Shown here: piece after piece, positions 12,001-56,746 of the stretch
How positions within the stretch are numbered: the first letter of the stretch is position 1
How the letters are laid out: the number at the start of each line of letters is the position of its first letter
DNA from: Luidia sarsii
Taxonomy: Eukaryota > Echinodermata > Asteroidea > Paxillosida > Luidiidae
Reading direction: 5' to 3'
Assembly: GCA_949987565.1 (NCBI GenBank)
Contig: OX465105.1
Span: forward strand, 16,539,426 to 16,603,425
DNA: 64,000 bases
Program-made: the position numbers and the translations under genes
The notes under the pieces: generated by a model
Seen by the model: only the letters and a program-made list of their open reading frames with translations
Databases searched by the model: none
Told to the model about the DNA's origin: nothing

Positions 12001-15000
12001 GGTGAGAGTTTGGCAACCTTTGGAGCTGTCCCAGACGGCCGTGGTCTCGTCCCCGTTCTGGCCCAGTAACGGGCAGAGGGGGACCGGGGGTCGCCCGTGG
12101 AAGGCAATGTGCAGGCATGGCACCACCTCGGGGCTGACGTTCAGTAGGTGCAGTACGTGGCCTGGCGAATACACCGCGATGTAGCTCTCTGTGGGGTGAA
12201 AAGGGAGATGAAATATGAATGAGGGAGGGAGGGGAGGGGGAGGGGGGAAGGGAGGGGAGGGAGGAGAGGGAGGGGAAGGGAGGGAGGGGACAGAGGTACG
12301 GAGGAGGGAAAGGAGGGACAGGGGAGGGAGGGAGGGAGCGAAGGAGAGTGATCGCGAGAGAAGTAGGGAGGAGGGATGGTCAGAGTGAGGGGAAGGGAGG
12401 GGGACAGAGGGAGGGAGGGAGGGAAGGAGGGAGGGACAGGGGAGGGAGGGAAGGAAGGAAGGAAGAGGAGTGGGAGGAAGAGAAGAAGGGAAGGAGGGAT
12501 GGTCAGTGGGAGGGGAAGGGAGGGAGGGGGATAGACGGAGGGAGGGAGGGAGGGACAGGGGAGGGAGGGAGGGAAGGAGGGAGGGAGGGAAGGAGGGAGG
12601 GAAGGAAAGGGAGTGGGAAGGAGAGAAGTAGGGAAAGAGGGATGGTCAGAGAGAGGGGAGAGAGGAAGGGGAGGGAAGTGGGAGGGAAGGGGACAGAGGG
12701 AAGGAAGGAGGGAGGGATGAGAGGGGGAGGGTAAGAGGGAGGTGAGGTGAGGGGAGGGAGGGGACATAAATTATGGAGGGGGACAAAGGGAGGGAGGGAA
12801 AGATGAAGGGACATGGGGAGAAAGTAAGGGAAAGAAGGAGGATGGGTCAGAGGAAGGGGGAGTGAGGGGGAGGAAGGGGGACAGAAGGAGGGAGGGAAGG
12901 AAGGATGGAGGGAAGAAGGGAGAGAAACTCTTGACAGTTGCAAACCAGTCCCATGAAAATCAGCAAATATGGCCACCTTGACTCACCCAATGGTGTAAAG
13001 AAGAGTCTAGTGGTCTCCGCCAGTTCTCTGGGTATCTGCGGCACGCTGCAGTGCAAGACAGTCATGTGGTGCAGCACAAGGACCGAGTAGTTGAGGTCCA
13101 CCAAGTCCTGCCTGTCCGATGACCTCTGACCCGAGGCGGGGGAGGCGGCGGCGGGGGAGGAGGGGGAGGAGGAGGGCTCCCCCTGCGGCCAGGGAAGGCC
13201 GAAGGCGCCGGCGGGCAGTCCGGGCGTCGGCTCTTCCAGCGGCGGGAGGGCCTGCCCTCGGCGGGCGGGCTGACCGCGCCCGTGAGCAGGCGTGGCCAGG
13301 GAGAGCCCGGTGATGTCCGAGATGGCCCGCCGCCGCCGCGCCTCGCCCGGCGGACCGGGCCACGCCCACACCCCGCCCCCCGGATCGGGCGCTACCTCCT
13401 GGCTCTCCCGCTCCTCCGTGGGGGCCCCGCCCCGCCTGCGGTCCCAGGACAGATCTGGGTCAGAGGAGTGCGCAGACGGGGTGAGGACCTTGGGCTTGGT
13501 CGGATGTTGGTAGCAGATGCAGAAAGACCCGTTGGCCTGGAAGATGACCTCCATGTTGAAGGATTTGCCTTCACAGAAGAAAAAAACCCGACAACCCCCA
13601 AACCATACAATGCACAGTCAGAATAGAACACCGGAACAAAGACTTGGATCCCAACAAGGAAGGTTGATATGGTAGACTCGAACCAAATAAATGAATGCAA
13701 CTTAACCACTTTGCACTGGGCCCTCCGAATCCGGGCATCACTATTGTCCAAGTTTTAAACATACACTCTTTTCAGCCTACCGCAAACAAAATGCAGTTGT
13801 AACAAAAGCCACACAGATGTCCAATTGTGACAGGTTTGAACTTGCTCGTGCAAATACTAGCCAGAAATCTGTCCTAACGAAACATCATACCTGATATCGT
13901 TCGACTTGGCACGATGTCGGAATACTGTTCTCTGGTGAAAGAAGAAACAAAGTTGCATTCGAGTCACAAAATACCGAGTCCGGGTCTGAGTACCAGTCAC
14001 AATCTCGTAAGTCATAAATCATTCAGGTCAAAGGTTGAATCCTTAGTCGAGTCACGAATCACTATTATTTCCATTATATTTTCTCTTAACGTTTGAAAGA
14101 AAAAGGAAATCTGGAAAAACTGATTTTGGGTCAAAAACGGAAAAATCTGACAGGAGCGGACCTGTCGAACATATTGAAAATTGGGCCTAAAATCAAGTTT
14201 TTTTGAGGGGGCCAAAAATGACTTCAACTGGTCTAGAGAAAGTCTAATCCGTTTTAGAGGGCTCTCAGATAATAGAGGAGTCATTTTGAGAGAAATCTGG
14301 AAAAAAATGATTTTGGGTCAAAAACAGAAAAGTCTGACAGGAGCGGACCTGTCGAACATGTCAAAAATTGGGCCAAAAATCAAGGTTTTTTTTAAGGGGC
14401 CAAGAATGGCTTCAACTGCTGTACGGAAAGTCTGATCCATGTCAGAGGGCCCTCAGATACCTGAGGAGTCATTTTGAGAGAAATCTAGGAAAATTGATTT
14501 TGGGTCTAAAACGGAAAAAACTGACAGGAGCGGACCTGTCGAACATGTCAAAAATTTGGCCAAAAATAAAGTTTTTTTGAGGGGGCCAAAAATGACTTCA
14601 ACTGGTCTACGGAAAGTCCGATCCATGTCAGAGGGCTCTCAGATACCTGAGAAGTCATTTTCAGACAAATCTGGAAATAACTGATTTTGGGTTAAAAACA
14701 GAAAAATCTGACAGGAGCGGACCTGTCGAACATGTCAAAAATTTGGCCAAAAATAAAGTTTTTTTGAGGGGGCCAAAAATGACTTCAACTGGTCTACGGA
14801 AAGTCCGATCCATGTCAGAGGGCTCTCAGATACCTGAGAAGTCATTTTCAGACAAATCTGGAAATAACTGATTTTGGGTTAAAAACAGAAAAATCTGACA
14901 GGAGCGGACCTGTTGAACATGTCAAAAATTGGGCCAAAAATCAAGTTTTTTTGAGGGGGCAAAAAATGACTTCAACTGGTCTACGGAAAGTCTGATCCAT

Positions 15001-18000
15001 GTCAGAGGGCTCTCAGATACCTGAGAAGTCATTTTCAGACAAATCTGGAAATAACTGATTTTGGGTTAAAAACAGAAAAATCTGACAGGAGCGGACCTGT
15101 TGAACATGTCAAAAATTGGGCCAAAAATCAAGTTTTTTTGAGGGGGCAAAAAATGACTTCAACTGGTCTACGGAAAGTCTGATCCATGTCAGAGGGCTCT
15201 CAGATACCTGAGAAGTCATTTTCAGACAAATCTGGAAATAACTGATTTTGGGTTAAAAACAGAAAAATCTGACAGGAGCGGACCTGTCGAACATGTCAAA
15301 AGTTTGGCCAAAAATAAAGTTTTTTTGAGGGGGCCAAAAATGACTTCAACTGGTCTACGGAAAGTCCGATCCATGTCAGAGGGCTCTCAGATACCTGAGA
15401 AGTCATTTTCAGACAAATCTGGAAATAACTGATTTTGGGTTAAAAACAGAAAAATCTGACAGGAGCGGACCTGTTGAACATGTCAAAAATTGGGCCAAAA
15501 ATGAAGTTTTTTTGAGGGGGCAAAAAATGACTTCAACTGGTCTACGGAAAGTCTGATCCATGTCAGAGGGCTCTCAGATACCTGAGAAGTCATTTTCAGA
15601 CAAATCTGGAAATAACTGAATTTTGGGTTAAAAACGGAAAAATCTGACAGGAGCGGACCTGTTGAACATGTCAAAAATTGGGCCAAAAATCAAGTTTTTT
15701 GGAGGGGGCCAAAAATGACTTCATCCATGCCGGAGTATTCTCGAATCACATTTGCAAGTGAAAGGCATATCCACACAGTATATCAAATTAAAAAGAACAG
15801 GTAAACTATTGAGAGAACAGTCATTTGATGAATCCGCGTAACCCAGGTGGGGTGGGGGGGTTGGCTGGAGATGCATCATGTCCCCATGCTATTGGATAAT
15901 TATTACCAGTATTTACTACGAGCAATTCTACAATGCTTTATCAGAAAACAGTCACTCAAGTTGCACACTTACTTTCCAGAGCTGGTTTTGATGGGAAAAG
16001 GCAGCACAAGTTCCAGCTGCAGGAGTGCAAAACACAATTCAATGATCGAAACATTTCATCAGATATTCAGACTAGAACCTTACACAGTATTAATATCCTT
16101 GTAACAATGGCCACAAATAAAATTGACTGCACCGGGACTTGAACCTGAGACCTCTGGTTTTGGGTACCACGTTGCATCATAGATATATACAGTGGAACGT
16201 CGCTGTAACAAATGCCGAAATACTGAATATTCGGCTATAACGAGCACCCCCTTTGGCTCTCGATTTTTGTGTACACAACTGGACGCAACTGCTTTAACGA
16301 TCAACCGCTACACCAAACAATTTTCATGGATCCCGGGATGTTCGTTATAGCGACGTACCACTGTAATGTGATGAAATTTCCTTGTCAATGCTGCGATTTT
16401 CATGCCAGGGGTCTCTGGTTCGAATCCCGGTCTTGTAATTTTTTTTTTTTTTTTTTTTATCTAGTAGACTGTCCTTACGATCTTGGTGAACTGAGAGGTT
16501 TTGTGGCTGAACTCCAGGCATCGGAGGACGGGGGCCAGTGCCTGCTCGTCGGGCCGCGATTTCATCTGGACAACGTAGAGGAGCTGGTTGATGGCATCCC
16601 ACTGGGCCCAGACGAACTGCTTCAGGACCTGAGAGGTGGCCGGCGGAGCACTCATCATCTGTGTGGAGGAGAAAAGAGGTCTCGGGTTCAAGTCCCCGCC
16701 CGGTCTAGTAAAGCTTTTACTTTTGCCACTTTTCAATTTGTTCAAAAAAAATTCCAGTCAGTTTTTCTCTTTTTATTGGGGGGGGGGCAGAGTTGACAAC
16801 TAACTCAGTATCCAACCCCAAATCTTGTGACTGGCGGCGTCGCTCCAAGGCAAAGATTAACTGACTGTTTGGGGAAGGCTGCCAGCTAAGGGCTGGATAG
16901 CTCAGGTGGTTAGAGCATCATGTTATCAAAGCCGGATGCCTTGCGTTCGAGTCCCATTTTTTTGGGGAAAGATTTAGTTTCGGCCACTTACCACTTTGTT
17001 GCCCATTCTTGCCAGCTGCAGACAGTAGAGACCGACAGCTGTAAAGAGAAGCAGGCAAGCAAAGCATTTACCATGAGTGTAGCGCTGTAGCCAGAAAACA
17101 AGCACTGAATAGCATTTCTTTACAAATTCTTGAGAAAGCGAGAAAAGATCTCTCCAGCCAAACTTGACCAAAACATTGTTCCTATTCTCCTTTTGTGTGA
17201 AAACGTTGTTGTTCCGAGTAGCTCAAAGGATGTTTAATGGTACAATGTAAATCTTGACAAAGTGCCAAATTTTTCAATAACATTTCTTCCTTTTTTCAGA
17301 GTAATACACAAAAATGTTGCAAATTGCTTACTGACTTGAACTGAATGCAAATTTTAAAAAAATAGGAGTGCCTAATGTTTTGAAAAAGAAAGCCTTTGAG
17401 AAAGGTCCTGCTGGGATCAAAAACAACACGCCCTCCTCTTTTTTGATATTTGCATTCGACCATTTCTGTCCGAGTAAGCAGTTTTGTAACTTTGTGCGTA
17501 TAACTCCTTCCTTTCTCTGTCCTACTCATGCCAGCCACCTCTTACATTCTTTGTGGAGCAGAAAGAGAAGTTTGGATTCTTTGCTAGCAGCGTCACGATC
17601 CTTGGTCTGTCGGCTCCACAGGAACTGGGCCCTGAGAAGGTTCCTCCGCTCCACGTTCAGGTCAAAGATCCGATGCTGGGGGAAGATCTCCGCCAGAAAG
17701 GCTCGGTACACTGCCGGCAATGAAAAGCAAAATAAACAACAACAACAACCCATCAATCAAATCAACCAAATTGAATTGAGAGGGATGTAAGTGAACGACA
17801 AAGTCACTTCCTGAAAATCAATGAAGGCCAATAAATTGTGCGACTGCGAGTGAGCGCTTGCGCGACCGAGAGATGCGACTGCGAAAGATTCACGGCAGGG
17901 GTGCAGGCGCCCTTCAGTTTTTAGAGTTTTAACAGATAAAAATGAGCAGTTTGAGATACCTGTTTGACATGAAATTAAAAAAAAAAATTAATTTTTTTTT

Positions 18001-33000: not shown

Positions 33001-35105
33001 AAGAGCCATTGTAACGATCTCAGATGGGCCCCCGTGCTGAGTTGAGCCGTGACGTTACTGGCTCACCTCAGCACGTTGCAGCAACGTTCTCAGCTGCTCA
33101 GCGTGCTCAGATGAGTCAGTGAACCAAGCATGTTAGGGCGCCCTTCATTTGAATGTTGTTTATGATTTTCCGCGAACGAACACAGTTTGCTTTTGATTGT
33201 ATGAAGTCAATCAATGCACCCTTATTACGGGGGAACAACTGTATCATTTCTTCCCCAATGTAAAACTGCAAGTTGTAGGCCTAGGTACTAGGCTCCGTAC
33301 TGAGCAAGTTGGTAAATAACGAACGAACGAACGTGCCTGAAAGCACTGCATTGCCAATGGCCGGATCGACTCAGCACGGCCTTCGAAATAGACAACTACC
33401 ATGCGCGCTGCGCATGACGTTTTTATCCATGGTAACGGTCTCATCTGAGCATGGGACCCGTATCAGACTGCTACAAGGTAACTCAACGTTTTGGGTAGTG
33501 TGTACTCTGCCTGTAGTCAGGAGACTGCTGGATTCCAACTATCATTGTTGCTCATAGTTATAAGTGCTGTGGAGCGAGGAGATTCTCAGTCTGAGAATCC
33601 TTCCCGCTGAGTTGGAATCCAGCAGTCTCCTGACGACAGGCACAGTATACGCTTGACACTACCTTCTGGAAATGTTGAGTTACCGGCTCTTTTACTTGGT
33701 ATTTCCACCATGCAAACCTTCAACTCTTTTCTGATGGATAACCTATTGTTGTGATAGGTTAAATGGTTTTCTGTGAATTTGCTCATAAGTCTTGCCACTG
33801 GGTGTAATTCACGCTGAGTCTGATGAAAATGACCTGTGACCAAAAATAATAGCATCTGTATTGCATTTTTTTTTTTTTTTTAGAATTAGAACAAGCCTTC
33901 AAGATGTTTCGATCCTAGCAGGACCTTCCTCAAAGGTATTTTGGCCATGGATGAGAAAAGATGCTGGTAGGATTGCAAAGTCAGGGCCAAAATTGTTAGT
34001 CACCACCAGACCAGAGTCAGACCACCTCCGTCTCCTCCAAACTCCCTGGGGCAAACCCCTGCCCTACCTTGGTTGAGCATTCTCGCAGCGTGGCCGTCAA
34101 AAGCGTCCAGCAGTCCACTGAGGAGATAGCACCACGTGGCCGTGACGTAGTCCGTCCTCATGTAGTAGAAAGATATCACTGCCAGAATGATCCGCCCATA
34201 CCCTGAAGGAGAGAATCAAAAGTGTAAATTATGATAAGAATTGAAGGAAAGTACCGAGTGGAGGGCTTGCAATGACACCGTGCAACACATCTCTTTTCTG
34301 AAGGAGTGCGTGGCTCTGAAAAGAGCCGGTAACTCAACATTTGGGGCAGTGTGCTGTGCACTCTGCCTGTTGTTAGGAGACTGCTGGATTCCATCTATCC
34401 AATTGACATAGGATCGAGTGTGGCCTGCCCAACTGCCAACACAACATACTGTGCTCTCCACAAGTCACTAATGTCACACGTCATCTAGCTAGTAATGTAC
34501 TATTACTAATACTAGTACTAGTAGTAGTAGTACTGTAGTAGTGTAGTACTAGTATCAGTACTACTAGTACTAGTACTACTACTACTAGTATCAGTACTAC
34601 TAGTACTAGTACTACTAGTACAGTAGTACTAGTACTACTAGTAGTAGTAGTGGTAGTAGTACTACTACCAGTAGTAGTGGTAGTAGTACTACTACTACAT
34701 GTAGTACATTAGTTAGTAGTATTAACTTGGACCTTCCATGCTTGGACTTGAAATTTGGAAGTCTCACTCTCAAACTCTCATTTGTAAACTGCTAGTTGTA
34801 GGCTACTACAACTACAGAATTATGTGATGAAATTTGTAAGCTAAACCGTAGCCTTGCCCTTGATCTTTTGTCAACAATTCTGACCTTTTCTTGTGAAAAA
34901 CAACATGTAAACTTATGTAAACAAACAAAGTCAAAATGACATAAAATTATGACATCTGACAAGTGTAATTTCACATCAATGTTGTGCTCAATATTGCACT
35001 TGCAGCGAACAAAAGATTCACTTCAGATCGTAAAAATCTGTACTTCTTATTGTATTTATATTTACCAATAAGATTGGGAACGAATAAGAAGATGTTCTCA
35101 GCCAT
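30083..35105 (-). CDS. CDIPT: CDP-diacylglycerol-inositol 3-phosphatidyltransferase (PI synthase)
   Basis: Six exons: 35105-35066, 34202-34068, 32812-32659, 31985-31904, 30659-30578, 30243-30083; 217 codons (human 213). The phases join cleanly. The enzyme is an integral ER membrane protein that makes phosphatidylinositol from CDP-diacylglycerol and myo-inositol. The N terminus MAENIFLFVPNLIGYGRI and the block YLLSGLLDAFDGHAAR are almost those of vertebrate CDIPT. The catalytic signature is complete: Asp46, Asp49-Gly50, Ala53-Arg54, Gly63, Asp67 and Asp71. Further family blocks are DIASHWLHLHS, DMSGNPILRVYYTSR, CAGNELFYSMLYLLYFTEGPL and HLVTAAQNMAIIDVAERQ, and the tail is Lys-rich (AKNKKE). 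The start codon lies 263 bp from the oppositely directed UQCR10 start. This is the conventional copy of the tandem pair. Confidence 0.97.
30945..31080 (-). mobile_element. tRNA-derived SINE with intact cloverleaf-like head
   Basis: The minus strand at about 31027-30957 reads a full tRNA-like order: 7-bp acceptor pairing (ggctggc with its partner near gtccagtc), a D arm gctcagatggaagagc, a 5-bp anticodon stem ctggt/accag and a T arm with ggttcaagtcc. It is followed by the SINE tail ggccttccaaaatagtcaac on the plus side. Confidence 0.65.
31124..31825. mobile_element. piggyBac-like MITE, 702 bp, with TTAA duplication
   Basis: Terminal inverted repeats ccacttcgcgccggg and cccggcgcgaagtgg, flanked exactly by TTAA at 31120-31123 and 31826-31829, the piggyBac target signature. 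No transposase frame. It lies in CDIPT intron 4. Confidence 0.9.
32165..32531. mobile_element. MITE with CCCCTACACAACATTGGT ends, copy 2
   Basis: Starts ttaaagcccctacacaacaa and ends ccaatgttgtgtaggggctt. Reverse orientation to the 7825-8185 copy. It lies in CDIPT intron 3. Confidence 0.85.
32938..33720. mobile_element. TGGCTCTGAAAAGAGCC palindromic element interrupted by an insertion
   Basis: The element reads ggtttgcggtgacaccat, ggctctgaaaagagcc at 32990-33006, then unrelated DNA to about 33477. It resumes with gtaactcaacgttttgggta and the gtcaggagactgctggattc block. Uninterrupted copies (34255-34400) show these joined directly. Confidence 0.7.
34495..34725. repeat. TAGTAC/CTAGTA simple repeat
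   Basis: About 230 bp of tag/tac trinucleotides arranged as many small palindromes (tagtactagta). It lies in CDIPT intron 1. Confidence 0.9.
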
Positions 35106-35368
35106 TATTGTACTTGAAGCCAGGAACCAGGACTCAGGCGAGACAACAATTCCGTGAGGATATTTTCTGTGTGATTAAAATTATGTTGATCAGACTGTCC
35201 TCTCTATCGTTTTGCCTCAAGAGGGCGCTATTTATCGCACGGCATCGAGGAATAGTCAGGTGCCGTGCCTTGCTTTCACGCAAATCGCGCTCAGGCAGTC
35301 TAGCTGTGGTAACCGGCTTGAATTTTCTTTGGATTCAGCGCACGAAAAGCTGCAAAACGCCGGTCGAG
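35106..35368. promoter_or_regulatory. Shared head-to-head promoter of CDIPT and UQCR10
   Basis: The two start codons are 263 bp apart on opposite strands, so both 5' UTRs and core promoters must fit here unless an upstream non-coding exon exists. I see no convincing TATA box at a standard distance. The sequence is mixed in composition and less repeat-laden than its surroundings. The bidirectional arrangement is inferred from the coding starts. Confidence 0.65.
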
Positions 35369-35935
35369 ATGTCGCTAGTCAGGAGCGTTTATAACACATT
35401 ATTCAGGCGAACGTCGACGTTCGCGCTGTCCATCGTCGTGGGTGCCGTCTTTTTCGAGAGGATGTTCGATGTAGGTGGCGATGCATTGTACGACTACATC
35501 AATCAAGGAGTGAGTATACATGCGCCAATGTACATTTTTGCCACTTCTAAAACCGGTCTTACTTTCCATAGCTAAAGTACGCAGCGCCCAAATTATCGCC
35601 CAATGCGCCTAAATATTCTTTTCACCGGGGATAGACGGCATTTATATTATTATTAATATATTTTCTTTTGATACAGCCAAATTACTCCAAACTCAAAGGC
35701 TAGGCAGGATGAATGATCATTCTACCTCTGAGAAAGGTCCTGCTAGGATCGAAATTTGAAACATCAGGTCTTGACATCTTTTGGATTTGCAATTTTTGCA
35801 AGTCGGCAATCAGTTTGCAACATTTTTTTATGACTGCGTTTTAATTATCATAATTTTTTTTTTTCCTTACAGAAACAATGGAAAGATATCAAAGGCACCG
35901 TTGCAGAACAGGCGGGAGGTGATGATGACGAGTGA
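35369..35935 (+). CDS. UQCR10: Cytochrome b-c1 complex subunit 9 (UQCR10), two exons
   Basis: Exons 35369-35509 (47 codons, donor gtgagt, phase 0) and 35873-35935 (20 codons plus TGA; acceptor after a T-rich tract). The product has 67 residues; human UQCR10 has 63. It starts MSLVRSVYNTLFRRTSTFAL and contains FFERMFDVGGDALYDYIN, which aligns throughout with the family block LLFRRTSTFAL...FFERAFD...DAIYDHIN. UQCR10 is a small single-span subunit of mitochondrial respiratory complex III, near cytochrome c1 and the Rieske protein. The acidic tail GGDDDE is longer than in vertebrates. A longer open frame from 35108 runs into this ATG, but only the part from here matches the family. Confidence 0.95.
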
Positions 35936-38271: not shown

Positions 38272-41200
38272 TCATTGTCTCAACTCTTCTGCCCAGTGGT
38301 CTGCATCATCCTGCAATAAGAGGTCAGTGAACCGAAACGTAGTTGTAGAGAGATGGAGGTTTGTTCCTTGTTTTCTTTTTGTAATCGCTTTGGATGAAGG
38401 AGAAATAAAATTGTATTCGCTTTCCAAAAAACAGCTGAAAAAAAGAAAGAAAGAATGAATCTCACCTCGGACGTTGAGAGTTGGGAGTAGCAGCCCTGCT
38501 TCTTCCGGATCAGATCTCCCCACAGAACGGTCTCCTTGCAGAGGGGGCAGTTTCCGTCGACTGGCAGCAGGAAGTCTGTGCGCCTTAGGAACTTGCCCGC
38601 AAGGCAGATGAGGTGCGCTGCCATGGTACAGTGTGGATGGACGCAGGACAGGAAACCATCTGTCTGGGGAAAAAGAAGAAGAATTTAAGACCCTAGATGC
38701 AACAAGAATTTCGAGTCGAGGAGGATGCACTTCAAGAAAGGGTTTGCCCTGCTCTATGTGTTTATCAAGCACTGTGTGCTCAGTGCTTTGCCCGATTGCC
38801 TGCTGAAGAAATACAGGCAGCTCGGTCGGGATTCAAACCAGCGACTCCTGCTCTCTAGTGCAGACGTCTCGAACCACCGCACTGCTGAGGTGATCGAGGT
38901 CGTGTGGCAGATTCGAATCAGCGGGTAACGCATTGCAGCATAGGTATGACATGTTTTTGTATCAAGGAGAATGTACTTCGATGAGGGTTTATCATACTTG
39001 ACGTGCAATCAAGCACAGTGTGCTCAGTGCTTTGCCCGAATGCCTGCTGAAGAAATGCATGCAACTCGGGGCGGGATTAGACATTCCAAGTGGAATGTTT
39101 GCAGTGACACCATGTAAAACCTCTCTTTCGTGAAGGAGTTCTATTTCGAGGACGTTGAGTTACCTTATCTTTTTAGAGCAACACTCCTCAAAACATGGTG
39201 TCACTGCGAACCTTCCACTTAGTATTTCCACCCGGCAAACCTTCAAGTCTTATCTGGTTAGACATTCATTCAACAAAGGAATGGAAAACTCTAAGGGAAA
39301 TTTCCTAAAATACCAGAGAATGAAAAAGACTTTGGCACTCTGGCAGAGTGTACCGGCACTCTTACCACCTCAGCAATCCAGTCTGTAAGACGGGGCCTTC
39401 CTAAAATAATCTTTGCTTGTGTGGGGGCGCCAAACACAGTCAAAGCCTTCCAATTGTTGCTGCAGCTTATTGTAAGGTCTACCAGCAGGACAAATAGCAA
39501 AACTACAATAGGGTCCAGAGACCAGAATGAAGATAGGAGACTTATCACCAACACACAGTAGTTTGAAAACATAACTCCTACAAGGCTCGCACTTAAGGTT
39601 TTTGTTTACTAGCCTACCGGGCTAGTAAATTGAGTTTTTTGCTAGCCCGTAGCAAGTTTTACTAGCCCTGTAAAATTAATATTGAATTTAAAGCAAGGTT
39701 ATCAGGTCAAGTAAAACAAATTATTAGTTTCTTCTTTTTCATCCCCACCCCCATTGTTTTTTTGCCTCCACACTTCTGTCTACTTTTTACTAGTCCGTCG
39801 GGCTAGCAAAGTTGGTTATTTTACTAGCCCGCAGCTGTTTTTACTAGACAATGACCGTCGGGCTAGTGCTAAGGTCGAGCCCTGACCTATACCACTCCAG
39901 CTCCACTGGTTGTCCATTTATATAAATTCCAAATTATTATTATTTATCATCAATCCTAAAATTTAGTGGGCCTGACGTTTCGATCCTAGCAGGACCTTTC
40001 TCAAAGACCTTTCTCACTCTGCCTTTGAGAAAGGTCCTGCTAGGATCGAAACGTCAGGCCCACTTAATTTTATGATTTGCATTTTGGTAATCTTAGTCAG
40101 TAAGCAGTTTACAACATTTGTTTGTATCACATTAATCATCAATATTAGTGCATCTATATAATGAATTTACAGACAGAATCACCAGATTACCTTAACTTAA
40201 TTGCTATTTCCACAAGACTTGTGCCTACCTGCAGTCTCTTCAAGCAAATGTCGCAGCGCTTGCTGGACGTCTGCGTCATCTTGATGAAGTCGTCGTCATT
40301 GTCACCGGTGCCCTCCGTCTGGCTGCCGGCGGGGTTGTCCGTGTCTCGGGCAGCCGCCGGTTCCCCGCTCTTCTTTTGGGCCTTCTTCCCAGGCTTCCTT
40401 TTGGAGTGCATCTGACCAATGGCATGGGCGGTTGAGATTAGATTTGCGGTTGAGATTAGATTTGATTAAGTCAGTCCTCAAAAGTAAATGACCGAGATTG
40501 AGGGTTTGTGCTGACAGTACTGTACTTGACAACAGCTTTCTATGTTGTGGCCTGAATCTTATCGAGAAAAATTCAAAGCGCTGCAGCTTATATATGACGT
40601 ACACATATTACGTATACATTACATTTGCAATTCAACCATTAACTGCCGTATAAACATGTCTAACCTACCGGGGATCAACCTCCGCTTTTTTTATTCAGAT
40701 GCAAACAACCCATTATTAGTTAACCTGGCTACGGCAGCTCAAGGACCAAGCAGAGCGGATGCACAGCTTTTTCCAATTCAAGTCAAACAAACAAAAGGAA
40801 AACAAAATTCATTTCTGTTCGGTCAGTTCCCCCCCCCCCCAAAAAAGAAAACCCCCAAATCCAATGAAATGCCAACCTTGATGGAGGTCACGGGTCCATA
40901 AGCGATGGGCATGTGGATGGGCGGGTGCAGTCCCTCCTCAAACTCGTGCATGTGGCCTTGCTTGAGCCACTGGACAGTCAGCGGGAGGCGACACCACGGC
41001 CCCACCCTCAGCATGTTGGACAGGACGCGCAGCTCAAACAGGAACTTCTTCTCCGTCCTGCGCTTGGCCGGCACGTGCTTGAGGCGGGTGCAGAGTCTCG
41101 GGTGCTGCCAAGCCCACTCAAACTGCGAGACACGCACGACAAGGGCAGGAGAAGAGGTCCAAATCCAAAACAGGAATGTTAGACTTAGAGCAGACAGACA

Positions 41201-44200
41201 GACAGACAGACACGAACACACAGACACAGAAAGATTGACAGACTGACAGATGGGCGCAGAGTCTCGGGTGCTGCCAAGCCCACTCAAACTGCGAGACACG
41301 CACGAAAAGGACAGGAGAAGAGGTCCAAATCCAAAACAGGAATGTTAGACTTAGAGCAGACAAGACAGACAGACAGACACAAACACACAGACACAGAAAG
41401 ATTGATAGACTGACAGATGGGCGCAGAGTCTCGGGTGCTGCCAAGCCCACTCAAACTGCGAGACACGCACGAAAAGGACAGGAGAAGAGGTCCAAATCCA
41501 AAACAGGAATGTTAGACTTAGAGCAGACAGACAGACAGACAGACACAAACACACAGACACAGAAAGATTGACAGACTGACAGATGGGCGCAGAGTCTCGG
41601 GTGCTGCCAAGCCCACTCAAACTGCGAGACACGCACGAAAAGGACAGGAGAAGAGGTCCAAATCCAAAACAGGAATGTTAGACTTAGAGCAGACAAGACA
41701 GACAGACAGACACAAACACACAGACACAGAAAGATTGACAGACTGACAGATGGGCGCAGAGTCTGTGGTGCTGCCAAGCCCACTCAAACTGCGAGACACG
41801 CACGAAACGGGCAGGAGAAGAGGTCCAAATCCAAAACAGGAATGTTAGACTTAGAGCAGACAAGACAGACAGACAGACACAAACACACAGACACAGAAAG
41901 ATTGACAGACTGACAGATGGGCGCAGAGTCTCGGGTGCTGCCAAGCCCACTCAAACTGCGAGACACGCACGAAAAGGACAGGAGAAGAGGTCCAAATCCA
42001 AAACAGGAATGTTAGACTTAGAGCAGACAAGACAGACAGACAGACACAAACACACAGACACAGAAAGATTGACAGACTGACAGATGGGCGCAGAGTCTCG
42101 GGTGCTGCCAAGCCCACTCAAACTGCGAGACACGCACGAAAAGGACAGGAGATGAGGTTCAAATCCAAAACAGGAATGTTAGACTTAGAGCAGACAAGAC
42201 AGACAGACTGACACAAACACACAGACACAGAAAGATTGACAGACTGACAGATGGGCGCAGAGTCTGTGGTGCTGCCAAGCCCACTCAAACTGCGAGACAC
42301 GCACGAAAAGGGCAGGAGAAGAGGATGAAAGATTTAGCTGACCGCCACCTTCCTCAACCCTCCATAATCCTCTGGGTTGATGTGGAGGATTGTGGAAGAT
42401 TGGGGAGGCATGCTACAATGAGATCTTGGAGGATTGAGGAAGGTTGTCATATTTACTGTATTATTTACACTGGAGGATTGTGGAGGATTGAGGAAGGTTG
42501 TCATATTTACAGTATTATTTACACTGGAGGATTGTGGAGGATTGAGGAAGGTTGTCATATTTACTGTATTATTTACACTGGAGGATTGTGGAGGATTGAG
42601 GAAGGTTGTCATATTTACAGTATTACACTGGAGGATTGTGAATGATTGAGATGGGTTCCAAGTAGAAAGCACTAAGGGGTTAGGATCCAAGTCCAAGTCC
42701 AAGTTAAGTACAAGTCAACCCGTGTTTTGAAAACATCAAATTTCTTACCATCAATGCTGACGACTTATTGGGAAAGCCGTACACTATCAGGACCATTTCC
42801 CTGCAACAACAGAAAGTGTGGGGCAACAACTTGATGAGTATAGTCCTGATACAAACAAAGTTATATAATGAAAGTTGAAAATTAAATGGAAAGTACCAAC
42901 GATGACTGCCCGTATCCCTCAGGATGGTCTCTGACCATCGGGAGGCCGGATTTACCCCCAGAACTGTGGGGTTCTACGTCGTCTGCTGCTCTCCCGACCG
43001 GAACCCCACAGATAACCATGCTTTTTTTCCATAGGCTTCTGTGTAACGTTCACTAGTACTTAGTAGTATCGTGGGAACCCCCGTTTTCGACGCTACACGA
43101 TTTCGACGCTTAGCCTTCTAACTCACATCGCACGATGAAAACAACTCCGTATAACGATCTCAGACTTCGTATCTTACAGTTGGTTTCCTGCTCTTGTCCG
43201 TCACCGAAAATGTGGAAATTTAAGGCTTTTCCAGTAGGCCAAACTCGTGTGATTCAAAAAGTTGCTCTTTTGGGGTCTATTTTCCTAGGTACAAAATAGG
43301 CAGTTGCTTCGAAGCTCCAGTTTTCTTTATTGTTGGTCCTAAAAAAATCTGAGTATACCATAACAAACCCCAACATCCGTAGAAAAAAAATATATCACGC
43401 AGCTTGAGGCAGTCCGTTCAGGGTAAAAACTATGGAGCCTCCTATAGGGCGTCTCGCTTATATATTTTTTTAAATTTATTTTTTATTATTATTTAAAGAC
43501 AAAAAGTAACATGGCCCAATAGGCTTTTTTTTTAAATGAAAAAAATAAAAGGGCAGCTAGAGAAAGTACCAAGAAGGAGGAAATGTGTCTCTGGAGTGAC
43601 ATTGGGAAAGGTCATAACTGAAAAAGCAGCGAGAAAGAGGATTGTGGAGTTTTTTTTAAACGTCACAAAAGAAGACATCAACCAGACCAATACGTTTTAA
43701 GCATAAATTATGAATGATTTGAGGAAAGTGTTAGAAGCAGTGTGGAAAAACAAAAACAAAGATGAACACAAAAAAACATACAGGGAAGAATTTTACAGTG
43801 CCACACAGCATTTTGAGTTATTTTAAGAATTTATTTTGCGTTTGGCTGCACTGGGACACCTTACTAAACACCACTGACGAAAATAGGTGACGATGCTTAC
43901 TGCGCGGTGCGCCGCGGACGTCAACAAAACCAGGTAATCTTACGGAAGTGACAGGCTTGATCAACCTTCTCTATGATTATTCTAATAGTCTGTGGTGTGG
44001 AGAAAGTGACTGGGACCTCTTTTAGTGTGAAACTTTCGTCCACATTGTTCAGTTTGAAGAAAAGTCCTTATATCGTCGAAAACCGGTTATTGGAGGATAC
44101 TGTCTACATACTGGTATAGCGGCTAGCTGCGAAGACGTACAGGGGACCAGACTGCCAGTTGCAGAGCTGCCGTTTGAATCTTGGGAACGAACTGGGAGGT

Positions 44201-45972
44201 TTTTTGCTAATTTTTTGGGGGAAATCGACACATTTTCGCCACATGGACAGTTGCACACAGGTGCGTGGTATGTAAACCACATTTTGCTAGAAATCTTGGG
44301 CCAAATGAAGCAGTATTTTATGAGTTGTGCCGAACCTGCTGAGCCCTATGCCAGAGTACTAGTAGTGAAAGTTACACAGAAGCCTACGGGAAAAAAAACA
44401 TGGTCATCTGTGGGGTACCGGTCGGGAGAGCAGCGGACGACGGCGAACCCCACGGTTCTGGGGGTACGGGAGGATGAGGCCATTGAGGGTTACGGTCACC
44501 ACACCACAACTTATTTCCAAAGCAATTAATGTACATGTAGAAGTATAAAACGATCATTCAATTTGGGGGCTAAACAAAATTGATTTAAAAGGCCCAATAA
44601 ACCATTTCGACGTTCGCAAAGCATCATGGGTATTAGTTGCGGTAACCGTAACCCTCATCCTCCCGAAGGTCGGAGACCTGAGGGTTACGGGAACGTATGT
44701 ACAAAATTATAGCGAGGTTTTTGTTTTTACCATTTTGGAAACACCACTGTCCCGATCGCCCCCTTTTCCCACCCTTTTGAAAATCGCCACACACAATCTA
44801 AGGACATGCACTTGATCCCAAATGTATACTGAATGTGATCAGATAACTCAAAACATCATGGGTAAAATACTTTTCCGAAAAACGGGCAGAAACTCACCAA
44901 AATACTGTCTGTAAATGTCCCGTCAACGTCTCCGCCAGGTTCGGAATCCGAACCTGGCGCCTCGACCAATCAGCGCTTAGTCTCGTGACGTATATCCCGC
45001 ACGACGGCTATTTGCTGTTTTGCAATAACAGTCCACACTCGTGGTGCGCGCGCAGGTCATCGTCCTGTGAAGAGCCGACTGGTACTGTATACAACCATGG
45101 ATATGCGCGCGCACCACGAGTGTGGACTGTTATTGCGAAACAGCAAATAACCGTCGTGCGGGATATACGTCACGAGACTAAGCGCTGATTGGTCGAGGCG
45201 CCAGGTTCGGATTCCGAACCTGGCGGAGACGTTGACGGGACATTTACAGACAGTATTTTGGTGAGTTTCTGCCCGTTTTTCGGAAAAGTATTTTACCCAC
45301 GATGTTTTGAGTTATCTGATCACATTCAGTATACATTTGGGATCAAGTGCATGTCCTTAGATTGTGTGTGGCGATTTTCAAAAGGGTGGAAAAATGGGGC
45401 GATCGGGACAGTGGTGTTTCCAAAATGGTAAAAACAAAAACCTCGCTATAATTTTGTACATACGTTCCCGTAACCCTCAGGTCTCCGACCTTCGGGAGGA
45501 TGAGGGTTACGGTTACCGCAACTACATGGGTATAGATGACAAACTCGCCGTATTTTTACCGCACAACTCTAGTCTATGGCAAAGTTCGTGAATTTTTTTT
45601 TTCTTCAAAAAACTAGATGGAGTTCGGAAACGAAACTCACACATAATTTCTGTCAAGATACAAGCAACAAAACATATTATTTTTTGGTAACTTTTACTTT
45701 TTACGTGTAGTTTTGGATAAATCAGTGAAAATTCCCTTGGTGACAGGTTGGCAAGCGAAGCAATAAATTATTTCAGTTCACCATGGTCCCTTGCCGCTGG
45801 TGCGTTTGGCACCTCCAAACCTGCTGCCTTTGTTGTGCTGCGAGATCCTCCTCCTCGGATCCACTGTAAAACCGATGTACGTTCTGCCTTTGAAGTCAGG
45901 ATTCAGGTTGAGCAGAAGGTAGCAGCCGTAGAATTCCTCAATTTCTACGGCCTTTTCACTTGAGTTCGGCAT
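38272..45972 (-). CDS. SLX1A: Structure-specific endonuclease subunit SLX1 (GIY-YIG plus RING)
   Basis: Six exons: 45972-45782, 42800-42749, 41122-40877, 40411-40229, 38663-38466, 38310-38272; 302 codons (human 275). SLX1 is the catalytic partner of SLX4 in the nucleus and cuts branched DNA such as Holliday junctions and flaps. The GIY-YIG nuclease domain is in exons 1-3: [11 protein letters not shown], then [16 protein letters not shown], then TSGKGPW and [17 protein letters not shown] joined to [10 protein letters not shown]. These include the catalytic Arg and the later Glu of the family. The C-terminal RING-type zinc finger is split over exons 4-5: CDIC, then CVHPHC, AAHLICL and CPLC. The last exon [12 protein letters not shown] aligns with the human tail. 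Between the domains lies a basic then acidic linker. An in-frame ATG at 46116 exists, but the family alignment starts near 45972. Intron 2 holds repeated copies of the exon-3 acceptor. Confidence 0.95.
38745..38930 (-). mobile_element. tRNA-derived SINE, TGGTCAAGTGG family, minus strand
   Basis: Reverse-complement copy: ggattcaaaccagcgactcc (B box complement), with gcaaagcactgagcacacag on the minus strand as in the 25557 copy. A partial second copy follows at 38970-39070. Confidence 0.6.
39590..39890. repeat. Clustered GGGCTAGTAAA / TTTACTAGCCC motifs
   Basis: At least six copies of ttactagcccg or its complement, about 30-80 bp apart, bracketed by aaggctcgcacttaagg on the left and gtgctaaggtcgagccct on the right. 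These brackets are inverted relatives, so the block may be one mobile unit. It lies in SLX1 intron 4. Confidence 0.6.
41110..42315. repeat. 167-bp tandem array duplicating the SLX1 exon 3 acceptor and first codons
   Basis: Exon-start copies (minus strand, ctcgcag then tttgagtgggcttgg) lie at 41122, 41288, 41455, 41621, 41788, 41955, 42122 and 42289: eight acceptors, 166-167 bp apart. Only 41122 continues into the real exon. Each extra unit carries the first 33 or so exon bases ([11 protein letters not shown]), then gtctgtctgtctg-type intron sequence. Units at 41788 and 42289 share a variant giving His for Pro. Confidence 0.97.
42440..42650. repeat. 56-bp tandem repeats (ggaggattgtggaggattg)
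   Basis: About four units of ggaggattgtggaggattga followed by ggaaggttgtcatatttac, in SLX1 intron 2 next to the 167-bp array. All three forward frames stay open by periodicity. Confidence 0.9.
42901..44505. mobile_element. Non-autonomous DNA transposon with about 110-bp inverted ends
   Basis: The left end (aactgtggggttctacgtcg, gctgctctcccgaccgg, aaccccacagataaccatg) is repeated inverted at 44397-44500 (catggtcatctgtggggta, ccggtcgggagagcagc). The right tip gggttacggtcacc resembles the tip of the foldback element at 44634. The inside is AT-rich with no recognisable transposase. It lies in SLX1 intron 1. Confidence 0.7.
44634..45524. mobile_element. 891-bp foldback transposon with 9-bp target duplication
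   Basis: Two almost identical inverted arms of 421 bp (44634-45054 and 45104-45524) surround a 49-bp centre. The element begins tagttgcggtaaccgtaacc and ends with its complement. CATGGGTAT stands directly on both sides (44625-44633 and 45525-45533). A 9-bp duplication with long inverted arms fits a Mutator-like non-autonomous element. It lies in SLX1 intron 1. Confidence 0.93.
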
Positions 45973-49054: not shown

Positions 49055-50620
49055 CCTTCACGAGGAATTCGGGCGCGAACATAGCAAATCCTGTACGCTT
49101 AGTCTAACAGAAGGAAGGAGCTCCTTTTAGCGCCAGCAAAAAAAAAACGTTTTACGTTTCCAACATTATTTGTTTCTTTCACGAAATGACAGAGGTGTCG
49201 TCGTCTCTACAGCACTTTGTTTTACACCAACTGTCCTGGAAGATTGCATCAGCGGTGGGTGGATCTCGTGCAGAGGCTGATAACATAATTATTACGACAC
49301 GTCTCTGTCCATTATCCACAATACACTCCCCGCCTGCTCACGATATTAATAAGCCGTATCGATTATTATAATTATGAAATAACGAAATAGCAATAAGAAT
49401 CGAATTGATTTAAAGGACCTTACCTTGTACCTTACTCGCTCAAATTGACCACTAAAAAAAAAAAATCACCGACACACTGACAAGAAAAGTTGGGTAACAT
49501 CAATTTGCCCAACAGTGATGGTTGTTATTCGCAGTTTTTTGACTTGGGATAGCAAATGTGCACCCCAAAACAAATTCGGGTAGAAGGAATGTACGGTGAA
49601 CAGTAAAAAGAAATAAAAACAAATCAATAAACAGTGCAAATATTTTGGTGAATAACTGACAGGTACTGGGCATCGTTTGGTGCTTCGATTCTGATCAACT
49701 CGATCCGGAAGTTATTCGGGCTGAGTCTTTGGCCCAACACTCGGTCCGGTTGTCTATACTATTATGCCATTCAAATAAAGCCTAGGGAAAACTGAAAGGG
49801 AAGTTCGTGAGCAATTTGAAGCCAAGAAAATGGCCAAGAAAAAAAATTGACTGGACCGAGGCTTAAAGTTCTTGGTTCAATTTCAATGGACAAGAAAGAG
49901 CGGACCACTGAAACTCGCAGAAACGGCTGACATTTTGAGAATCCAACAAAGGCGATTTCATCGACAGAAAATTCTAATGTCATTAGTGGATATCTTTTCG
50001 AGACCAGTTGGTTGGAAAATTATTTCCAACCATTCATGGCAGTGAATCAACGTAAGAACACAATTCAAATAAAGTGAGGCAAACGGAGCTAATGTTAAAG
50101 TAGTTGAATAAACGGCAAAGGAAAAAAAATGTAATGGATCTATATAGTTCGAGGCCCGGTCCAGTCAAATTTCGTCAATTTTTTTGTTTGCTTGAAAAAT
50201 ACGATCACTAACTATAAGCGTTGAAATGCCTTGTTGCTCGATGCGCGTGACTCAGCGTGTAATGCATGGTACAAAAAGAATGCCACCTTAAACGATATTT
50301 ATTCTTTCTTAGAAATGAAAGACGACGCATACGAGGTATCTATGCTATTTTTTTTTCAACCCGTGAATTCCATGTGATACTTTATGTATGTCGCGAGTAG
50401 TTACCACGATCCTACATTATAACACGAACTAACATCCACTGCTGTACCGTACTCTACACCGTAAAAAGAATGGAAACTTTGGGCGAAACAATGTTCGGCA
50501 AAACCGTGTGCGCAACACTTGGTTTTAATCTGAAATGCTGGGATTTTTGTATCAACACAATCCACAATGTGAGATTTAACTGTGAGACTGAATGCTGCCT
50601 GGTGACTTTCTGTCCAGAAT
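49055..50620. other. Unannotated intergenic stretch
   Basis: No gene, long repeat or clear mobile element was recognised. Short fragments resembling the SINE tail (ttgactggaccgaggctta at about 49850 and ggcccggtccagtcaaat at about 50155) are present. Confidence 0.4.
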
Positions 50621-50621
50621 T

Positions 50622-51695
50622 GGTATCAATGCCTCATTGGTATCAATACCTCATTGGTATCAATACCTCATTGTATCAATACCTCATTGTATCAATGCCT
50701 CATTGGTATCAATACCTCATTGGTATCAATGCCTCATCGGTATCAATACCTCATTGGTATCAATACCTCATTGGTATCAATACCTCATTGGTATCAATAC
50801 CTTATTGGTAACAATGCCTTATTGGTATCAATGCCTCATTGGTATCAATGCCTCATTGGTATCAATACCTCATTGGTAGCAATGCCTCATTGGTATCAAT
50901 GCCTCATTGGTGTCAATAACTCATTGGTATCAATACCTCATTGGTATCAATACCTCATTGGTATCAATACCTCATTGGTAGCAATGCCTCATTGGTATCA
51001 ATGCTTCATTGGTATCAATAACTCATTGGTATCAATACCTTATTGGTATCAATGCCTCATTGGTATCAATACTTCATTGGTAACAATGCCTTATTGGTAT
51101 CAATGCCTCATTGGTATCAATACCTCATTGGTATCAATGCCTCATTGGTATCAATACCTCATTGGTAACAATGCCTTATTGCTATCAATGCCTTATTGCT
51201 ATCAATACCTCATTGGTATCAATGCCTCATTGCTATCAATACCTCATTGGTAACAATGCCTTATTGGTATCAATGCCTCATTGGTATCAATACCTTATTG
51301 GTATCAATGCCTCATTGGTATCAATACCTCATTGGTATCAATGCCTCATTGTATTAATACCTTATTGGTATCAATGCGTCATTGGTATTGATACCTCATT
51401 GGTATCAATACCTCATTGGTATCAATACCACATTGGTATCGATACCACATTGGTATCAATACCTTATTGGTATCAATGCCTCATTGTATTAATACCTTAT
51501 TGGTAGCAATGCCTCGTTGATATCAATACCTCATTGGTATCAATACCTTATTGGTACCAATACCAATACCACATTGGTATCGATACCACATTGGTATCAA
51601 TACCTCATTGGTACAATACCTAATTGGTATCAATGACTCAATATCGATGGTGCTTATAATGGTATCAATGCTTCATTGGTATCAATACCTCATAC
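50622..51695. repeat. 17-bp tandem array (ggtatcaatacctcatt)
   Basis: About 60 units of ggtatcaatacctcatt with a common variant ggtatcaatgcctcatt and some single-base deletions. Each unit holds the dyad GGTAT-CA-ATACC. Since 17 is not a multiple of 3, the long open frames repeat every 17 residues and are artefacts. Confidence 0.97.
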
Positions 51696-56000: not shown

Positions 56001-56746
56001 GCGCGCACAGGACAACGAGGCATTCGTATTCGTATTGAAGGCAACGTATGGTGCACGTATAGTGCACATTTAAAACCCACAGTAATTGGTATACCCTTTT
56101 ATGGTGCATGCATAAAACCCACAGTCGTTGGTATACCCTTCTATGGTGCAAGTATACAACCCACAGTCGGTGGTATACCCTGCTATGGTGCAATGGTGCA
56201 CGTATAAAACCCACAGTCGTTGGTATACCCTGCTATGGTGCACGTGTCAAACCCACAGTCGTTGGTATGCCCTGCTATGGTGCACGTATCAAACCCACAG
56301 TCGTTGGTATACCCTGCTATGGCGCATGTATAAAACCCACAGTCGTTGGTATACCCTTTAATGGTGCAGGTATAAAACCCACAGTCGTTGGTATACCCTT
56401 TAATGGTGCAAGTATAAAACACACAATCGATGGTATACCCTTCTATGGTGCATGTATAAAACCCACAGTCTGTAGTATACTGACCATGCTTAGTTCCCAT
56501 ACTCCATTGGGCACGAAGTAATCGCTAAGGTTCTGCGAGGTCTCCACGTCCTTGAAGAGATCGATGTCGATGATGGTGTAGACCCAGGAGGCGAAGATGA
56601 GGTCGCAGCGCTGCACGTCGAAGGGGAACATGAGCGTGTCGATCTGGCACGAGGACTTGAGGATGGCCGGGAAGTTCCAGGAGACCATGCCGTCCGGCGA
56701 CACGATGGCCGGTATGTTCTTGGTCCGCTCGAAGAACTCGTCGACG
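53093..56746 (-). CDS. Nicotinic acetylcholine receptor alpha-type subunit, 3' three exons
   Basis: Exons 56746-56485, 55068-54789 and 53772-53093; phases are consistent, with stop TGA at 53093. The first exon has the Cys-loop (two Cys 13 residues apart, with FPFDVQRC) and the loop-B Trp (FASWVY). The second has the vicinal cysteines YPCCPDPFP of alpha subunits, then M1 (HYILSILLPAVLLAVISLSIYV in outline) and M2 (GEKISLGVTTLLALLLF). The third has M3, a long M3-M4 loop with a Gly/Ala-rich stretch and a Cys-rich patch (CLCN...CRCC), then M4 and the C terminus. The protein would be a subunit of a pentameric acetylcholine-gated cation channel; Glu at -1' of M2 fits cation selectivity. Exons for the signal peptide and first half of the extracellular domain were not found up to 64000. 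The 20' Glu is replaced and loop C has Phe where Tyr is usual. Confidence 0.94.
53831..54082. mobile_element. Deleted copy of the TGTGACCCGGCACAGC MITE (nAChR intron)
   Basis: Begins tgtaacctggcacagcgaca and ends atgtgtcgggtcaca, and shares cgagtaaacaacgcctaaag and ctcaaaagtgggggttattc with the full copy at 58127-58596. Confidence 0.8.
54225..54745. repeat. Nested inverted repeats built on gagtttgcaacgcgttggcc
   Basis: The block ctcttgagggcgcactactg and its complement, with gccaatcaca, occur at 54235-54290, 54335-54375, 54635-54690 and 54690-54740 in both orientations. They surround a unit with aggcttaggctcgggctcag (54405) and its inverted partner (about 54590). It looks like repeated insertion of one hairpin MITE in the nAChR intron. 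Confidence 0.7.
55095..55130. repeat. ATTCA microsatellite
   Basis: About six units of caatt/attca just upstream of nAChR exon 2 (the acceptor lies at 55069). Confidence 0.9.
56048..56476. repeat. 42-bp tandem array abutting the nAChR donor site
   Basis: About ten units of 42 bp (ggtataccctgctatggtgc, acgtataaaacccacagtcg, tt). The array ends within about 10 bp of the splice donor of the 56746-56485 exon, so the intron opens directly into it. Confidence 0.95.

Follow-up and report, generated by a model that had tools for sequence, protein, structure and literature searches.

How can a gene stay intact when the boundary between one of its introns and the following exon stands in eight tandem copies? 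This question is raised by the DNA-repair gene SLX1 of the sea star Luidia sarsii, which lies on the minus strand of a 64,000-nucleotide (nt) stretch of contig OX465105.1 (assembly GCA_949987565.1, positions 16,539,426 to 16,603,425; hereafter the window, with position 1 as its first letter). At 41086-42324, the junction of SLX1 intron 2 with exon 3 occurs eight times in tandem, in nearly identical form, on the minus strand, and the acceptor at 41122 alone opens the full exon 3; we refer to the other seven as decoys. We consider it probable that this array is a largely neutral, self-homogenising minisatellite of the rare type called "mirage", with splicing mostly at 41122. Mirages are described in PMC3087553 and PMC3902484 as lancelet minisatellites that duplicate an exon boundary. 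The array in SLX1 is probably mostly harmless.

Anatomy of the array

Tandem Repeats Finder (TRF) reports a 167-bp array over 41086-42324 with 7.4 copies, 97% matches, and a score of 2359, which is far above chance expectation. The first exon bases of the eight acceptors are 42289, 42122, 41955, 41788, 41621, 41455, 41288, and 41122, separated in this order by steps of 167, 167, 167, 167, 166, 167, and 166 bp. In a full unit, the terminal part of intron 2 with its branch site, pyrimidine tract, and AG is followed by 33-37 nt from the beginning of exon 3 and then by a TCTG-rich spacer, whose length of 87-88 nt depends on our own cut of the unit. The parts of the array are as follows:

41086..42324, minus strand: 167-bp tandem array ("mirage"), defined by TRF and unit alignment
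42253..42324, minus strand: decoy copy 1, acceptor 42289, truncated on its 5' side; HHRLC variant
42086..42252, minus strand: decoy copy 2 (spacer, intron end, and exon part), acceptor 42122
41919..42085, minus strand: decoy copy 3 (same parts), acceptor 41955
41752..41918, minus strand: decoy copy 4 (same parts), acceptor 41788; HHRLC variant
41585..41751, minus strand: decoy copy 5 (same parts), acceptor 41621
41419..41584, minus strand: decoy copy 6 (same parts), acceptor 41455
41252..41418, minus strand: decoy copy 7 (same parts), acceptor 41288
41123..41251, minus strand: copy 8, the last spacer and the intron end preceding the authentic acceptor

Both TRF and the unit comparison bear out what the initial annotation had described, namely eight near-identical 3' splice sites 166-167 bp apart on the minus strand of SLX1, of which seven are decoys and a single one, 41122, leads productively into the full exon. 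Its placement at 41110..42315 gave the right location, the true extent being slightly wider. With unit 2 as the sole reference, identities are 98.8-99.4% for units 3-6 and 97.0 and 97.6% for units 1 and 7, with few differences overall. Over 37 nt, the real exon 3 is 97.3% identical to five decoys, the first 33 nt being the same, and 91.9% identical to the other two. All eight acceptors terminate in CGCAG and all eight junctions read AG/TTTGAG. The further statement that the same 11 residues are encoded after each acceptor holds for six of the eight copies, where the exon part codes for HPRLC, and fails for copies 1 and 4, which code for HHRLC. The pyrimidine tract carries CCC in place of TCC in copies 1, 4, and 8. 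In copy 1, repeat homology reaches only ~35 nt upstream of the exon part, and the spacer is present seven times in the array.

Some variants are common to non-adjacent copies: HHRLC in copies 1 and 4, a 1-base deletion in spacers 5 and 7, and the CCC tract variant in copies 1, 4, and 8. This pattern fits an exchange of blocks, or a conversion, that extended over the splice junction and, together with the lancelet precedent discussed below, makes a change in copy number of the array plausible. It also bears on the idea that the assembly process enlarged a shorter array or fused two haplotypes. There is a precedent, as the draft genome version of one lancelet array looked aberrantly assembled according to PMC3087553. 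But the copies bear individual variants in a particular order, and the array measures just 1.24 kb, which is short for long reads, if long reads were used. We regard an assembly artefact as quite improbable.

A separate 54-bp minisatellite (4.2 copies; 42427..42650, minus strand) is located upstream of the array in the same SLX1 intron 2. It has inverted 26-nt matches to 42347-42372.

The SLX1 gene

The minus strand of the window contains a complete, intact SLX1 gene, whose six joined coding exons form an open frame of 302 amino acids (aa):

45782..45972, minus strand: exon 1, coding part, with the chosen ATG at 45972; ends GGACCATG; donor GTGAAC; Pfam GIY-YIG assigned on the joined protein
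42749..42800, minus strand: exon 2, 52 nt, donor ATG/GTAAGA; conserved in relatives
41123..42748, minus strand: intron 2, 1626 nt, holding the decoy copies
40877..41122, minus strand: authentic exon 3, 246 nt, acceptor 41122, donor AAG/GTTGGC with 40876 as the first intron base
40876-40412, minus strand: intron 3, 465 nt
40229..40411, minus strand: exon 4, 183 nt
38466..38663, minus strand: exon 5, 198 nt, encoding most of SLX1_C
38272..38310, minus strand: exon 6, 39 nt including the stop

In the 302-aa protein, residues 15-87 match GIY-YIG with 53.5 bits (Pfam cut-off 22.6) and residues 215-276 match SLX1_C with 67.6 bits (cut-off 27.2). Among the seven sequences of the Protein Data Bank matched by this protein, six carry the name SLX1. 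With both the GIY-YIG and the C-terminal SLX1_C domain, the predicted product is, by its domain content, the structure-specific endonuclease SLX1. A homologue search found 443 proteins; among the best 120 of these, Acanthaster planci ranks first (74% identity over 94% of the query), Asterias rubens second (66% over 97%), and Patiria miniata isoform X2 seventh (66% over 78%). We aligned 10 relatives chosen from the 120. Three sea stars are 74, 68, and 70% identical and the remaining seven 54-60%, and the exon 2/exon 3 junction aligns to all 10 without insertion. The predicted slx1-like isoform X2 of P. miniata lacks the exon 1 part and hence most of the GIY-YIG domain; this short start may reflect either an alternative first exon or an error of the gene model.

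Splice signals of the eight copies

The splice sites were scored with an approximate matrix of human frequencies, so that the values serve for ranking only. With a 24-nt tract, acceptors 1-8 score 8.2, 8.71, 8.71, 6.1, 8.71, 8.71, 8.71, and 6.1, the last value being that of the real site; with an 18-nt tract, each decoy reaches 6.36, and the 4.27 of the real site is the lowest of the eight. The acceptors of SLX1 exons 2, 4, 5, and 6 score 9.78, 1.61, 14.07, and 7.9. In random 167-nt stretches of the same strand, the top-scoring AG site falls short of 8.71 in 83% of cases and of 6.1 in 67%, and the acceptor scores of the array are thus ordinary values. By motif match only, acceptors 2-8 are each preceded by a CTAAC motif, the A of which lies 57 nt before the acceptor without an AG in between. 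The corresponding positions are:

41179, minus strand: predicted branch-point A (GTCTAAC) of the authentic acceptor, by motif match only
42179, 42012, 41845, 41678, 41512, and 41345, minus strand: predicted branch-point A before acceptors 2-7, by motif match only

No CTRAY branch site was found in the 120 nt upstream of acceptor 1. In predicted folding, the tract and the AG taken together have a mean unpaired probability that ranges from 0.45 to 0.61 among the eight acceptors and is lowest (0.45) at the real one, whose last three bases, CAG, are the most open (0.48 vs 0.22-0.37), as is the start of the real exon (0.43 vs 0.30-0.36). With such mixed signs, a masking of the decoys by RNA structure is unsupported.

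Donor sites differ from this picture. The best of the 157 GT dinucleotides in the array scores 2.17, compared to 8.88, 4.36, and 8.63 for the donors of SLX1 exons 2, 3, and 4 (three donors scored), and 83% of random 167-nt stretches contain a GT better than 2.17. Because the GTs of the array score so poorly, it is unlikely, judging from these predicted sites, that the decoys form cassette exons. We therefore rejected cassette exons, micro-exons, and a poison cassette exon, for which no unit has an adequate donor (2.17 vs 4.36-8.88). Recursive splicing at a ratchet site was rejected as well: it needs an AG followed by GT, and all eight sites have AG/TTTGAG.

These signals also bear on the proposal that the array is an intermediate in the gain of an intron or exon, with a decoy exon fragment being recruited later, as was suggested from the lancelet globin mirages. 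Such a model is put forward in PMC3087553, and the AG is intact in all eight copies. However, no unit has a good donor, a stop lies in every decoy frame (see below), and the AG/TT at every site leaves no room for ratchet-type re-splicing. This proposal therefore appears very improbable to us.

Predicted products of the decoys

Joined to the exon 3 donor, each of the seven decoys is predicted to give a premature stop. According to the initial annotation, every decoy frame reads RACLAV and then TGA at the next copy. This is the case for decoys 5 and 7, each of which stands before a 166-bp step, the TGA being part of the TTTGAG of the next copy; the frames of the other five end at a TAA after 34 codons, which starts 65 nt ahead of the next acceptor. 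The predicted products are 115 aa (five of seven) or 137 aa (two of seven) long. They retain the Pfam GIY-YIG match (15-87) and lack SLX1_C (215-276). Hence, the expected truncation of SLX1 stands for all decoys, but the cut falls just past the Pfam GIY-YIG match and not within the nuclease domain as had been assumed. The usual rule for nonsense-mediated decay (NMD) sets a distance of 50 nt. Since the seven decoy stops sit 244-1311 nt upstream of the exon 3 end, the decoy products would be NMD targets by this rule. Use of a decoy would lengthen exon 3 from 246 nt to 412-1413 nt.

If decoy transcripts were made in substantial amounts, the array could act as a regulatory poison element: competition among eight acceptors would divert a set fraction of SLX1 pre-mRNA to nonsense transcripts, and the copy number would tune the SLX1 dose. 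The premature stops, which in all seven cases precede the end of exon 3 by 244 nt or more, would serve this purpose, and the decoy acceptors score at least as high as the real one, six of the seven with the same branch-site motif. Moreover, PMC9225289 describes an overall preference for upstream 3' sites in human genes. On the other hand, lancelet mirages are reported in PMC3087553 and PMC3902484 as leaving regular splicing undisturbed, the decoys have no good donor, and the resulting exons would be very long. The protein searches argue weakly in the same direction: the decoy-specific tails gave just 4-12-residue scraps with E above 1 against 159 SLX1-like proteins, of which the best full-length identity is 74%, none being near enough to stem from the source species. 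Used as a query, the 115-aa predicted product retrieved 39 proteins, and among the hits listed none is similar enough to come from this sea star. Taken together, we consider a regulatory poison array unlikely.

A variant of this idea appears extremely doubtful. The SLX1 nuclease acts on recombination intermediates. In a copy-number rheostat, each added acceptor would send more pre-mRNA to nonsense transcripts and thereby lower SLX1, so that a feedback loop would link repeat length and SLX1 activity.

Choice of the acceptor

We favor the explanation that the array is a near-neutral mirage and that exon definition would favor 41122. This acceptor is nearest to the exon 3 donor and is the only one that yields an exon of normal length (246 vs 412-1413 nt), from which we infer that splicing takes place mostly there. 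Decoy use by a minority of transcripts would be cleared by NMD. The initial annotation had concluded that the cell must either skip seven good acceptors or tolerate nonsense transcripts. Active skipping is not needed, because the decoys have no good donor and would produce exons of 412-1413 instead of 246 nt. According to PMC9225289, a human exon that lies between two long introns (above 250 nt) is preferentially spliced at the pair of sites with the shortest distance across it. SLX1 introns 2 (1626 nt) and 3 (465 nt) both exceed this value, and the human preference would thus favor 41122.

A number of points speak against this explanation. None of the decoys is weaker than the real acceptor, whose 24-nt score ties with that of copy 4 and is below those of the other six, so we rejected a stronger real site as the basis of the choice. 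Acceptors 2-8 all carry the branch-site motif, and predicted folding gives the real site no consistent advantage. Since scores, branch motifs, and folding do not favor 41122, site strength does not account for its presumed choice. In addition, competing 3' sites show an overall upstream preference in human genes; in the long/long (exon definition) class, this preference is described in PMC9225289 as significantly reduced, and is not said there to be reversed. PMC3087553 allows that the AG and GT signals of the repeats could serve as cryptic sites. With the upstream preference and a possible role of mirage signals as cryptic sites, the decoys could be used to a substantial extent, and by analogy to these cases some leakage to the decoys is likely. 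Exon definition in sea stars is an assumption, and the proposed splicing at 41122 is read from DNA sequence.

Proposed origin of the array and comparison with known mirages

The near-neutral mirage would have originated by a tandem duplication that took in the last part of intron 2 together with 33-37 nt from the start of exon 3, with SLX1 otherwise intact. Copies would then multiply and homogenise via unequal exchange, slippage, or gene conversion, and the copy number would be expected to differ between individuals. A duplication that straddles the boundary could be tolerated, as the last copy still opens the entire exon 3. Since the full exon always directly adjoins the outermost copy, the reading frame would be preserved and the array would be near neutral. 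One simple duplication does not account for the whole unit, which again weakens this explanation: in a blastn comparison with the window (E up to 1), the spacer matched its seven array copies and otherwise just five segments of 19-27 nt, of which one again lies within the array. With no more than such short matches outside the array, a spacer copied from elsewhere in the window was rejected.

The closest counterpart is the lancelet globin gene BflGb6, in which units of 150-160 bp contain the intron end and the start of exon 2, with six and three units in two haplotypes (PMC3087553). In both cases, the 3' end of an intron and the 5' part of the next exon stand in tandem, and splice signals are kept in many copies. 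Unit identity is given as 81-100% with homogenisation for BflGb6, and the six other full units of the SLX1 array are 97.0-99.4% identical to unit 2. RT-PCR and the data on Adh3 are said in PMC3087553 to suggest that regular splicing is not interfered with; unlike this lancelet globin, the sea star array, with its seven decoys and the real site, is described from genomic DNA. The lancelet Adh3, TnC, and PGBD5 mirages described in PMC3087553 and PMC3902484 likewise consist of tandem repeats over splice sites. The Adh3 and PGBD5 units are smaller (10-72 bp for Adh3 in PMC3087553; 60 and 108 bp, imperfect, for PGBD5 in PMC3902484), compared to 166-167 bp in SLX1. PMC3087553 cites somatic instability of the Adh3 mirage, and the Adh and TnC mirages are said in PMC3902484 to yield no aberrant mRNAs. 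As described in these sources, lancelet mirages affect both 5' and 3' boundaries, whereas the SLX1 array is located at the 3' end of intron 2.

The SLX1 array shares several features of mirages: the unit holds an intron end and an exon start, the authentic boundary is kept at one end with the gene open (302 aa), and AG signals are present in the copies, at eight of eight acceptors. The unit is of minisatellite size, with 166-167 bp being slightly above the range of 10-160 bp reported in PMC3087553. Among the matches listed from a partial literature collection with few subscription papers, we found no mirages outside lancelets, although they could have been described under other names. PMC9225289 describes splice-site competition assays by Reed and Maniatis that offer a further parallel, with alternative acceptors in cis competing for one donor. 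In these laboratory assays, the upstream acceptor won; the SLX1 decoys differ in carrying only 33-37 nt of exon sequence and in lacking a separate donor.

Other features of the window

No second mirage was found in the two other arrays that we inspected (14107-15723 and 56058-56470). The first is a minisatellite of a 187-bp unit (8.6 copies, 94% matches), in which no exon was recognised on reading. The second, on the minus strand, is a 42-bp minisatellite with 9.6 copies that starts ~14 nt past a candidate donor, ATG/GTCAGT, belonging to a putative exon of a Cys-loop ligand-gated channel (Neur_chan_LBD); it adjoins this donor, and no exon sequence was seen inside. The remaining features are:

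4795-5154, minus strand: open frame matching the Pfam gamma-secretase-activating protein C-terminus
8606-8921: GGGGCA hexamer, 52.7 copies
35072-35572, plus strand: open frame matching Pfam UQCRX/QCR9
50619-51634: 17-bp unit, 59.7 copies

Significance

A clear-cut case in an echinoderm suggests a wider distribution of exon-boundary minisatellites among deuterostomes. With seven decoys that have an AG and a near-identical tract, six of them also with the same branch motif, the SLX1 locus of L. sarsii represents a natural acceptor-competition experiment. Whether 41122 wins would show the weight of exon definition versus site strength. The array shows that a duplication of an exon boundary can persist without breaking the gene.

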